In this document: piece by piece, positions 60,687-64,000 of the stretch
How positions within the stretch are numbered: the first letter of the stretch is position 1
How the letters are laid out: each line of letters opens with the position of its first letter
DNA from: Bacteroidota bacterium
Lineage (GTDB): Bacteria; Bacteroidota; Bacteroidia; B-17B0; Aurantibacillaceae
Assembly: GCA_020162035.1 (NCBI GenBank)
Contig: JAIUNM010000007.1
Location: 1-64,000 of the forward strand
DNA: 64,000 bases
Direction of reading: 5' to 3'
Notes under the pieces: generated by a model
What the model was told of the DNA's origin: nothing
Database searches by the model: none
What the model saw: the letters and a program-made list of their open reading frames with translations, nothing else
Made by a program: the position numbers and the translations under genes

Positions 60687-60759
60687 GATTCCGTAGCTCA
60701 GCAGGTAGAGCATTACACTTTTAATGTAAGGGTCCTGGGTTCGAATCCCAGCGGGATCA
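60687..60759 (+). tRNA. tRNA-Lys (anticodon TTT)
   Basis: 73 bases fold as a full cloverleaf. Acceptor GATTCCG pairs with CGGGATC, D-arm TAGCTCAGCAGGTAGAGCA, anticodon loop CTTTTAA, T-arm TTCGAATCC. The gene does not encode CCA. Anticodon TTT specifies lysine. Confidence 0.97.
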
Positions 60760-60760
60760 C

Positions 60761-60851: not shown

Positions 60852-61979
60852 ATGATTGTAAATAACCTATTAAATAAAGCTTCTAATTTTGACTTCTTAA
60901 CTATCGAAGAAGGAATTTTTTTATATGAAAATGCGCCAACATCAGAATTAATGTTTGTTGCTAATGAACTGCGTAAAATTCAAAAAAATAATTCGCAAAA
61001 AGTTACTTGGCAAATTGATAGAAATTTAAACACTACAAATGTTTGTATTGCCAATTGTAAATTTTGTAATTTTTATCGCATTCCTGGCCATGCAGAATCT
61101 TACATTACAGATATACCAACTTACATAAAAAAAATTGAAGAAACAATTAAATATGGCGGAGACCAACTCCTTTTACAAGGCGGGCACCACCCCGATTTAG
61201 GTTTAAGTTTTTATGTTAACTTATTTAAAGAAATAAAAAAACTTTTTCCTCAAATTAAATTACACTCACTTGGTCCACCCGAAATTGCACACATTACAAA
61301 GCTCGAAAAAAGTACACACACCGAAGTATTAAAAGCATTAGTTGATGCTGGCCTAGATAGTTTACCTGGTGCAGGTGCAGAAATTTTGAATGATAGGGTG
61401 CGAAGATTAATTAGTAAAGGAAAATGTACCGGACGCGAATGGCTAGATGTAATGCGTGCTGCACATCAATTAAATATTACAACAAGTGCAACAATGATGT
61501 TTGGACACGTTGAAACAATTTTTGAACGTTTTGAACATCTGGCATTGTTACGCCAAGTGCAAAGCGAAAAACCAGAAAATGCCAAAGGCTTTTTAGCTTT
61601 TATTCCATGGCCGTTTCAAGATGATGGCACATTGCTTAAACGTGTTAAAGGAATTAATAATAACGTAAGTGCAGATGAATACATAAGAATGTTAGCACTA
61701 TCTCGCATAATGTTACCAAACATCATTAACATTCAAGCAAGTTGGTTAACCGTTGGTAAAGAAACTGCTCAAATTTGTTTACATGCAGGCGCAAACGATT
61801 TTGGAAGTATAATGATTGAAGAAAATGTAGTTAGTGCGGCTGGTGCGCCACATAGGTTTACCTATAAAACAATACAAGATGCTATAAAAGAAGCTGGGTT
61901 TGAACCACAATTACGTAACCAACAATACCAAGAAAGAATTTTACCAAATACAATTGTAGAACAAGTTATAAATTATTAG
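60852..61979 (+). CDS. mqnC: Cyclic dehypoxanthinyl futalosine synthase-type radical SAM enzyme
   Basis: A 375-residue radical SAM protein. Cluster ligands Cys65, Cys69, Cys72 in NVCIANCKFCNFYR; LLLQGGHHPDLGL, SLPGAGAEILNDRVR and TTSATMMFGHVE are MqnC-type motifs. MqnC cyclises dehypoxanthine futalosine in the futalosine route to menaquinone. The paralogue MqnE shares the fold; the motif set favours MqnC. Depends on Fe-S supply such as the suf operon. Other mqn genes are not in the window. Confidence 0.88.
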   Translation: MIVNNLLNKASNFDFLTIEEGIFLYENAPTSELMFVANELRKIQKNNSQKVTWQIDRNLNTTNVCIANCKFCNFYRIPGHAESYITDIPTYIKKIEETIKYGGDQLLLQGGHHPDLGLSFYVNLFKEIKKLFPQIKLHSLGPPEIAHITKLEKSTHTEVLKALVDAGLDSLPGAGAEILNDRVRRLISKGKCTGREWLDVMRAAHQLNITTSATMMFGHVETIFERFEHLALLRQVQSEKPENAKGFLAFIPWPFQDDGTLLKRVKGINNNVSADEYIRMLALSRIMLPNIINIQASWLTVGKETAQICLHAGANDFGSIMIEENVVSAAGAPHRFTYKTIQDAIKEAGFEPQLRNQQYQERILPNTIVEQVINY

Positions 61980-61997
61980 TCGAAAATATTTTATTTT

Positions 61998-62183
61998 TTA
62001 ATCAATTTTTAATAATTCAAAAGGTTCTATATTTAACGCTTGGGCAATGTGATAAATATTAGTTATGCTTGTATTTATTTCTCCTCTTTCAATTCTACCA
62101 ATTTGATTTATTCTGATATTTGATTCATAAGATAACTGAGTTTGAGTTATTTTTTGGGAAGATCTCATTTTTTTAATCTTCAA
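61998..62183 (-). CDS. Small XRE-type helix-turn-helix regulator
   Basis: A 61-residue Cro/C1-type HTH. The fold covers nearly the whole protein: IKKMRSSQKITQTQLSYESNIRINQIGRIERGEINTSITNIYHIAQALNIEPFELL. No ATG precedes the first helix except an internal one at 62168; the frame stays open upstream to a TAA near the palindrome at 62254, so start may be TTG 62183 or an unusual codon further up. Divergent from the 62303 cluster, so likely to control it. Confidence 0.75.
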   Translation of the reverse strand: MKIKKMRSSQKITQTQLSYESNIRINQIGRIERGEINTSITNIYHIAQALNIEPFELLKID

Positions 62184-62253
62184 TCCAACTTGTTTAATAA
62201 ATATTTCTTCTTTACGATAACTAATTCCGCAAAAATTATAAAACCAAAAAAAA

Positions 62254-62279
62254 TAAATAACCCAAATTTGGGTTATTTA
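62254..62279. promoter_or_regulatory. Perfect 26-bp palindrome, likely operator
   Basis: Half-site TAAATAACCCAAA and its exact reverse complement, no spacer, centred between 62266 and 62267. It sits between the HTH gene and the rightward cluster, 24 bases before the first ATG. A T8 run follows on the minus strand, so a terminator reading is possible, but nothing is known to be transcribed leftward into it. Confidence 0.7.
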
Positions 62280-62302
62280 GAATTAAATTTTATTTTTACT
62301 TA

Positions 62303-62776
62303 ATGAAAACAATAATTACAATAATTGCGATGATATTCGGGATGAATAGCTTTGCACAAGGAGAAAAAAAAATTTACGAAGTTTCACCTCAACCATTTGA
62401 GATTGGAGTTGGTTGTAAAGTAAACGGTCCTTTTTGGAATTCAGATCAAACATGCGTAGCATACCATGTTAATTGTAGTAGCTTGGCAAGTTTTGTTACT
62501 GTTACAAATTGTGGCACATGTTGCCAAATAAATTGGACAGTTTTCGAAAGAAATGTCCCTTCTAATATAGATAATCCTATACAAATAATGGTTGAAGAAG
62601 GTACTCAATTAACACAAGACGAGCTAGACCAATTGAATCAAATGAAAACATTTTTTCAAATGGATGTAACTCAAGAGAAAAAATTTGAAGATTCTGAGAA
62701 AATTATTATTTATAAACCAGGTAAATATACAATTGACCACTCAAAAATGAAATTAACAATAAATAGAACTAATTGA
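62303..62776 (+). CDS. Secreted six-cysteine protein
   Basis: A 157-residue exported protein (signal MKTIITIIAMIFGMNSFAQ). The mature N-terminal half holds six cysteines: GVGC, QTC, HVNC, TNC and CC in CGTCC, enough for three disulfides. The second half is Gln/Asp/Glu/Lys-rich with a helix (QLTQDELDQLNQMKTFFQMD) and terminal strands. No family recognised. First gene of a cluster with two thioredoxin-fold proteins. Confidence 0.75.
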   Translation: MKTIITIIAMIFGMNSFAQGEKKIYEVSPQPFEIGVGCKVNGPFWNSDQTCVAYHVNCSSLASFVTVTNCGTCCQINWTVFERNVPSNIDNPIQIMVEEGTQLTQDELDQLNQMKTFFQMDVTQEKKFEDSEKIIIYKPGKYTIDHSKMKLTINRTN

Positions 62777-63342
62777 AAAAATTCCTTTTAATACTATTAA
62801 TCTTATCCACTATTTTAAACCTTGCGCTTTTTTGTATTCAAAAGAGGCGCGAGGTTTATAGAATTAATACATTAAATAATGAATATTTAATTAATAACAA
62901 AAACTTAATACAAGAGAGCAAAACATTTTTTAACTCTAATAATTTATATACAAATTTTAATTACATCATATTTTTTGACACCTTAAATTTTTTCAATAAC
63001 ATTAAAAAAATTCAATTTTTAGACTCTCTTGCATTTAAAAATAAAAACTTGAATTTTTTAATATGCTCAAGTTATAAAATTGATTTTATGGTTAATTATT
63101 TTAAAAAATATAATTTATCGTTTTCCAATTTAAAATTTATTTCTCATCAAAATTCACTACACTCTGCGATTTCAAATGAACTTTTTTTAAATCATAAAGT
63201 TTATGGGACTGATGCAATTATTGACAAAAGTGGGAAATTAATTTACGAAAGTTATTCAAATAAAAAAAACAATAGAGCTAAACTAATTAATGTTATCGAT
63301 TCATTGAATAAACAATGCGAAATAAAATTACCAATACAATAA
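62773..63342 (+). CDS. Membrane-anchored thioredoxin-fold protein without active-site cysteines
   Basis: A 189-residue protein; TTG start (62773) overlaps the previous stop by 4 bases, so it is coupled. N-terminal transmembrane helix (ILLILSTILNLALFCI), then strands and helices in thioredoxin order: NYIIFFDTLNFF in the place of the active-site strand (no CxxC), NLNFLICSSY, LFLNHKVYGTDAIIDKSGKLIYES (cis-Pro region, no Pro). It seems a degenerate TlpA-like domain that may bind rather than oxidise. Confidence in the fold is moderate. Confidence 0.65.
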   Translation: MKKFLLILLILSTILNLALFCIQKRREVYRINTLNNEYLINNKNLIQESKTFFNSNNLYTNFNYIIFFDTLNFFNNIKKIQFLDSLAFKNKNLNFLICSSYKIDFMVNYFKKYNLSFSNLKFISHQNSLHSAISNELFLNHKVYGTDAIIDKSGKLIYESYSNKKNNRAKLINVIDSLNKQCEIKLPIQ

Positions 63343-63863
63343 TAATAATTCTATTAACTTTTTCAGTTTATTTAAATTATAAATTAGTTAAAAACGAACT
63401 TAGTTATTATAGTTGGAAAAAATCTGTAAATGCTGCTTACTCTAATTTATCAATAAACACATCCAAATTATCAGAAGCAATAAAGATTTTACCTCTCACT
63501 AAAAAATCTAAATTTATTTATTTAAGTACATGGGAAACATTTTGTAAGCCTTGCATTAAAGAAATTCCGTTATTAGATTCAATTTTATCTGAAGCTAAAT
63601 TACCAATCTCATGTTTCTTTCTTTCAGATATGACCAATGATACAACAATAAAAAAGAAATTAAAAATAAACAACTTTCAATTTCTGTATAATCAAAACAA
63701 ATTAATTTCAGCTATACATAATAAATTTAATATTAAAACAAAAACATATCCATTAAATTTACTTATAGATACAAATCTTAATGTTTATTACTTCTCAAGT
63801 GTTGGAATAAACAACAACGAAAAAAATAAAATAATAAACACAATTAAAAGCATTAACTATTAA
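63315..63863 (+). CDS. Membrane-anchored TlpA-like thioredoxin
   Basis: A 182-residue protein with an N-terminal membrane anchor (NTIIIILLTFSVYLNYKLV) and a periplasmic thioredoxin fold: KFIYLSTWETFCKPCIKEIPLLDSI holds the CKPC active site; TYPLNLLIDTNLNVYY contains the cis-Pro. Overlaps the preceding gene by 28 bases. Likely redox partner for the six-cysteine protein. Confidence 0.82.
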   Translation: MRNKITNTIIIILLTFSVYLNYKLVKNELSYYSWKKSVNAAYSNLSINTSKLSEAIKILPLTKKSKFIYLSTWETFCKPCIKEIPLLDSILSEAKLPISCFFLSDMTNDTTIKKKLKINNFQFLYNQNKLISAIHNKFNIKTKTYPLNLLIDTNLNVYYFSSVGINNNEKNKIINTIKSINY

Positions 63864-63895
63864 TTAAATTGAATTCATTTTAAATACAAATTGTT

Positions 63896-63903
63896 TATAT
63901 TTG
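63896..63903 (+). promoter_or_regulatory. Probable promoter -7 element TATATTTG
   Basis: Exact TAnnTTTG match five bases before the ATG at 63909, so the last gene of the window may have its own, nearly leaderless transcript. Confidence 0.45.
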
Positions 63904-63908
63904 TTTAA

Positions 63909-64000
63909 ATGAAATTCATTAAATTTTTAATTACTTTTTTTATTTTATTATCCTCTTTAAACATTAAATCTCAAACAAAAGACACCATTTATTTAATGAA
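63909..64000 (+). CDS. Exported protein, 5' end only (window edge)
   Basis: ATG 63909 opens a frame that runs off the window; 30 codons are visible. Begins with a signal peptide (KFLITFFILLSSLNIKSQ) followed by TKDTIYLM, a start common to Bacteroidota exported proteins. The family cannot be named from this much. Confidence 0.7.
   Translation, partial: MKFIKFLITFFILLSSLNIKSQTKDTIYLM

Follow-up and report, generated by a model that had tools for sequence, protein, structure and literature searches.

Does a compact run of genes for an exported, cysteine-rich protein and two membrane-anchored thioredoxin-like proteins form a dedicated folding line for one secreted product? The question is raised by the last 2 kb of the window, the whole stretch of 64,000 nucleotides analyzed here (contig C7:1-64000 of a 3.17-Mb genome), for which a preliminary description had proposed such a line. 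The block of about 1.9 kb contains four small genes, a divergently transcribed HTH gene and then g1, g2, and g3. As that description reported, the last three overlap: the stop codon of g1 and the TTG start of g2 share 4 bp, while g2 and g3 share 28 bp, which suggests translational coupling at this locus. The order it gave, with the CKPC protein ahead of the thioredoxin that lacks the motif, has to be corrected; the exported protein (g1) is followed by the CxxC-less protein (g2) and then by the CKPC protein (g3).

A discrete accessory cassette inserted between mqnC and g4

The four genes make up a discrete inserted accessory cassette (61987..63885, both ends approximate). On its left, and outside it, lies the plus-strand gene for a 375-residue radical-SAM-type protein (60852..61979), which by eye we take to be mqnC. 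On its right, also outside, lies g4 (63909..64000, plus strand, running on to 64559), which encodes an exported core protein of 216 residues and is found in 31 of the 40 genomes of the genus. Gap lengths were counted in the 20 of these 31 genomes for which the analyzed stretch includes mqnC as well. There mqnC, 82-92% identical to the copy in the studied genome, adjoins g4 with a gap of 17-192 bp in 19 relatives and of 794 bp in the remaining one, G015. The corresponding gap in the studied genome is 1,929 bp, and the HTH-g1-g2-g3 insert occurs here alone in comparison with the 20. Against the empty site of the nearest relative, G036 (92% identity in mqnC, 84% in g4), homology ends right after the mqnC stop codon and restarts at TATATTTG, the promoter that g4 has just upstream and that is kept in empty sites. 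Base composition differs as well, with 23.2% G+C in the cassette versus 33.3% in mqnC and 32.4% in g4 (flanking genes, 31-33%); by gene, the values are 30.4% for g1, 20.5% for g2, and 21.1% for g3. Terminal repeats, a transposase, or a tRNA were not found at the cassette ends. The nearest tRNA gene, tRNA-Lys (ttt), is at 60687-60760, before mqnC.

The exported protein encoded from 63909, which the preliminary description had counted as a member, is thus a conserved neighbor with a promoter of its own. Transporter, peptidase, or immunity genes of the unit were to be sought beyond position 64000; what lies there is the rest of g4 and an M43 metalloprotease gene, both excluded as members because they are core genes that adjoin mqnC in relatives. 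The metalloprotease (L004, 4562-6673; window position 64562 onward) has a PKD domain as well as a type IX secretion tail, and is a neighbor kept in many relatives. Within the cassette itself no transporter, peptidase, or immunity gene was found; any immunity function would have to come from g2 or g3. The 794 bp gap in G015 carries the remnant of an Eco47II-type restriction enzyme (L126, 756-1100), so the mqnC-g4 site takes other cargo and seems to be an insertion hotspot.

The three encoded proteins

The first gene, g1 (62303..62776, plus strand), encodes a protein of 157 residues with a signal peptide, MKTIITIIAMIFGMNSFAQ, judged by eye. It is the exported six-cysteine protein of the preliminary description. 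The cysteines, at positions 38, 51, 58, 70, 73, and 74, all lie within 60 residues of the mature N terminus, and the C-terminal half is free of Cys and includes a KxGxY motif. No family name fits, as had been stated: searches of Pfam, curated family models, and PADLOC returned no family match. Used by itself as the query, g1 found no match in 60 relatives; its peptide pattern occurs nowhere in 85,000 GTDB species; its own genome has no paralogue; and no relatives were detected in GTDB contigs, plasmids, phages, or viral contigs, the phages having been searched with the G026 relative only. No convincing further g1 appeared among 395 genomes of the class and 87 of the order. Weak matches in G269, G452, L062, and L042 were dismissed as chance similarities to long TPR proteins, LuxR regions, or out-of-frame stretches, and DNA matches at C18 and C5 are not homologous loci.

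Relatives of g1 are therefore limited to two genomes, G026, where the protein has two repeats, and G027, where only a remnant is present. A profile built from g1 and the G026 repeats identifies the G027 relative with an E-value of 3.1e-6. Conversely, a profile made only from the relatives in these two other genomes, searched against 538 ORFs from 90 kb of the studied genome, has g1 as its sole significant match (E = 2.5e-7; the next is at 0.18), and the gene arrangement is for this reason not a chance reading. When aligned by eye, g1 and both G026 repeats have in common the pattern C-x(10-12)-C-x6-C-x(13-18)-C, which falls on Cys 38-51-58-74 of g1 and on 46-57-64-78 and 188-199-206-225 of the G026 protein. 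The structure model of g1, beta-rich, has a pLDDT of 40 and is unreliable, and the protein resembles no known toxin. It is a rare exported protein family without a name.

The second gene, g2 (62773..63342, plus strand, TTG start), encodes a protein with an N-terminal membrane anchor and a thioredoxin fold. Its AlphaFold2 model (pLDDT 75) matches the TlpA/ResA-type structures 2m72, 2l5o, and 4nmu in Foldseek with probability 1.00, at modest TM-scores of 0.41-0.44 by query. By alignment, the protein has neither the catalytic CxxC nor the cis-Pro. It had been described as cysteine-less, which holds for the CxxC motif but not for the protein as a whole, since Cys21, Cys98, and Cys182 are present, and one of these lies in the anchor helix. 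A g2-like protein encoded beside a CKPC gene in G010 has likewise lost both CxxC and cis-Pro. As both proteins are without catalytic features, a non-redox role is likely for them, judging from their sequences. A tree of the CxxC-less proteins has long branches, and neither supports nor contradicts a single origin.

The third gene, g3 (63315..63863, plus strand), encodes the membrane-anchored TlpA/ResA-like protein with CKPC that had been predicted here. The CxxC opens the first helix of the thioredoxin fold and a cis-Pro loop is present; CxPC and YP are kept in all four members of the g3 family. Among ResA models, the best match is PRK03147, with an E-value of 5.9e-7 and 29.5 bits against a cut-off of 170; Pfam AhpC-TSA scores 13.2 against a cut-off of 26, and the protein stays far below every curated family cut-off. 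Relatives by sequence in the PDB are 4k9z, the ResA structure 4nmu, and 1jfu. The close family (E <= 1e-12) is represented in four of the 40 genomes of the genus, namely the studied genome, G026, G027, and G010. Proteins of the TlpA/ResA type frequently act as reductants, and the fold of g3 does not in itself imply that g1 is oxidized. A separate locus in Psychroserpens (L042, 3644-6783) has four genes, almost in tandem, for TlpA-like CxxC proteins that are similar in size.

Recurrence of the cassette and a candidate operator

The cassette recurs in three other genomes, in altered form each time. The G026 locus, reached through g2, has a divergent HTH gene, then a gene for an exported two-repeat g1 relative of 321 residues, then the CKPC gene, and no CxxC-less partner. 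The G027 cassette, which also has no such partner, contains a 5'-truncated g1 remnant without signal peptide, genes for an EcoRV-type endonuclease and a D12-class (Dam-like) methylase, and an intact gene for a CLPC lipoprotein of the g3 family; the restriction-modification pair lies between the g1-like remnant and the gene for the TlpA-like lipoprotein (L024, 10122-13106). In G010, the CxxC-less and CKPC genes stand in tandem, both with open frames, and there is no g1. The four cassettes have different neighbors and occupy unrelated sites; an NtrC-type regulator gene lies next to the G026 cassette, and in G027 this gene is followed by other genes. The best reading is that a cassette of the HTH-g1-g2-g3 kind moves between genomic sites in the genus and diverges fast. 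A crude filter for Cys-rich exported proteins, applied to the neighbors of 80 TlpA-like loci, returned only the G026 locus as alike; another locus, L055, in which ABC genes intervene between the TlpA-like gene and that for the exported protein, and which was therefore spotted by eye, is discussed below.

These comparisons bear directly on the idea of a dedicated folding line. Its compact layout and the recurring association of g1 with a TlpA-like protein stand, but a fixed three-part set does not. Gene order is conserved to the extent that g1, intact or as a remnant, again accompanies a TlpA-like gene in G026 and G027, and that the CxxC-less/CKPC tandem returns in G010; the full trio is not repeated. 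Separate occurrence of the genes in relatives, named in the preliminary description as evidence that would count against its proposal, is in part what we find, with the pair lacking g1 in G010 and the CxxC-less partner missing from G026 and G027. The case for an obligate folding line loses strength, since in two of the four genomes the thioredoxin genes are kept although g1 is absent or broken. That g3-type genes outlive g1 in G010 and G027 is the strongest counter-evidence to maturation of g1 by g3.

The local HTH switch of the preliminary description corresponds to a minus-strand gene (61998..62183), divergent from g1, for a 61-residue Cro/C1-type regulator (Pfam HTH_3, E = 5.9e-10). A larger, likewise divergent HTH gene holds the corresponding place in G026. 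The 61-residue protein resembles the controller proteins of restriction-modification systems (PADLOC Control_protein, E = 3.7e-11); among PADLOC defense models, HTH proteins alone are matched, and g1, g2, and g3 have no match. Between the HTH gene and g1 lies a perfect palindrome of 26 bp, TAAATAACCCAAATTTGGGTTATTTA (62254..62279). It is the sole perfect palindrome of at least 18 bp in the 64 kb, none of 5000 shuffles of the intergenic region matches it, and the genome has no second copy within 1 mismatch. The -7 box of Bacteroidota is TAnnTTTG, and because the palindrome center, CAAATTTG, closely resembles it, we infer a repressor site over the g1 promoter. The palindrome is therefore a plausible candidate operator for the HTH protein. 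A resemblance to a minus-strand terminator was noted; this reading is less likely, as no gene ends there in that direction.

Proposed function and comparison with known systems

The cassette most likely makes a disulfide-bonded exported effector together with its own folding helpers. Exported by its signal peptide, g1 would acquire two or three disulfides as it folds in the envelope, and the membrane-anchored g3 protein would most likely form, shuffle, or proofread these. The g2 protein, a relative of g3 minus the catalytic residues, would most likely hold g1 or g3 without redox chemistry. Repression of the cassette is probably exerted by the HTH protein at the unique palindrome, whose position overlaps the region of the g1 promoter. 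We take g1 most likely to be a bacteriocin-like effector used in competition, not a housekeeping protein. This view of g1 derives by analogy from the operons of PedC and BdbA, considered below, and from restriction-modification company, that is, the EcoRV-type pair in the G027 cassette and the Eco47II remnant between mqnC and g4 in G015; mobility and rapid divergence join this company in suggesting an antagonistic role. We put the probability of the explanation as a whole (mobile cassette, competitive effector g1, redox helper g3, holder g2, and HTH repression) at roughly 0.4.

Three other explanations deserve consideration. The g1 product could be a disulfide-stabilized surface or extracellular protein, such as an adhesin, a binding protein, or an envelope-stress factor, carried as strain-specific cargo with g3 and g2 as folding helpers and with no part in antagonism. 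Export of g1, the beta-rich character of its weak model, the double-repeat form in G026, which suits a binding protein, and the lack of a visible immunity gene are all consistent with this; conflict cargo, however, better fits a protein that is tiny, rare, fast-diverging, and found in restriction-modification company, and no surface-anchor or adhesin domain is recognized in g1, which leaves a surface role somewhat unlikely. Alternatively, the thioredoxin-like proteins may act on their own, in thiol repair or reduction or in protecting the carrier from g1, and travel as a protection or neighbor pair rather than fold g1. The G010 pair without g1, the intact CLPC gene that accompanies a damaged g1 in G027, and the reductant activity frequent among TlpA/ResA relatives would all be expected in that case. 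The overlaps of g1 with g2 and of g2 with g3, the g1 relative that precedes the CKPC gene in G026, and the combination of an exported Cys-rich protein with a CxxC protein, which is the usual make-up of a maturation pair, argue against it, and we regard it as unlikely.

It is improbable that the genes are merely chance neighbors, in other words unrelated accessory genes that an insertion hotspot has collected, g2 being a duplicate of g3 in decay. The mqnC-g4 site did also receive a restriction-enzyme gene in G015, g2 lacks catalytic residues, and g1 of G027 is a remnant; against this, g1 and a TlpA-like gene occur together at different sites in three genomes, the CxxC-less/CKPC pair appears again in G010 with both frames open, and overlapping genes point to one unit. 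The mobile effector cassette with helpers remains our preferred reading. A doubtful extension of it is that it represents a new class of mobile antagonism cassette in Bacteroidia, with a signal-peptide effector of 4-6 Cys, a dedicated TlpA-like enzyme that matures it, a pseudo-thioredoxin for holding or self-protection, and an HTH protein on a unique palindromic operator. If so, the principle of a disulfide enzyme dedicated to one secreted effector, known from bacteriocins of Gram-positive bacteria, would extend to mobile cassettes in Bacteroidia, and a thioredoxin devoid of catalytic residues would join as a possible chaperone or protection factor that works without redox chemistry. Because nature provides four versions, which differ in the presence of g1 and of the non-catalytic partner, the roles lend themselves to direct tests.

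Our literature search found no relevant paper on such an arrangement in Bacteroidetes. Several known systems show partial likeness. As in small Cro/C1 HTH regulators and restriction-modification controllers, the 61-residue HTH protein matches Control_protein and has a palindrome upstream; what sets it apart from the latter is that the window encodes neither a restriction enzyme nor a methylase next to it. With anchored thioredoxins of the TlpA/ResA/DsbE type, g3 shares the N-terminal anchor, CxxC, cis-Pro, and the match to the ResA model, but it is very divergent, accessory, and not a cytochrome c maturation gene, and g2 is without CxxC and cis-Pro. L055, in an uncultured Chlorobi (CAMZKV010000017.1, 1257-4339), looks like a bacteriocin cluster, with an exported protein that ends in a Cys-rich bacteriocin-like stretch (ACVGYAWSACMDDPGCRAICLATFPACW...). 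It resembles the cassette in its divergent HTH gene, its exported Cys-rich product (8 Cys), and its short anchored CKPC TlpA protein, and differs in having an ABC exporter; its Cys-rich product, moreover, showed no detectable relationship to g1 in sequence.

The closest comparison is with the bacteriocin operons that include PedC (pediocin PA-1), BdbA (sublancin 168), or BlpGst, the latter two cited for other bacteriocins in a study in which co-expression of PedC made recombinant pediocin more potent, with an inhibitory concentration of 0.4 uM instead of 1.2 uM (PMC4919988). These operons encode a short peptide, a dedicated ABC exporter, and an immunity protein in Gram-positive hosts, whereas the cassette encodes a 157-residue g1 protein with a signal peptide and neither exporter nor immunity gene; its CxxC protein, moreover, is TlpA/ResA-like and accompanied by a partner without catalytic residues. 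What they have in common is a small exported Cys-containing product encoded together with an exported thioredoxin-fold CxxC protein, represented in the overlapping run by g1, a putative bacteriocin, and g3. The cassette is analogous to the PedC/BdbA bacteriocin operons and does not belong to that group.
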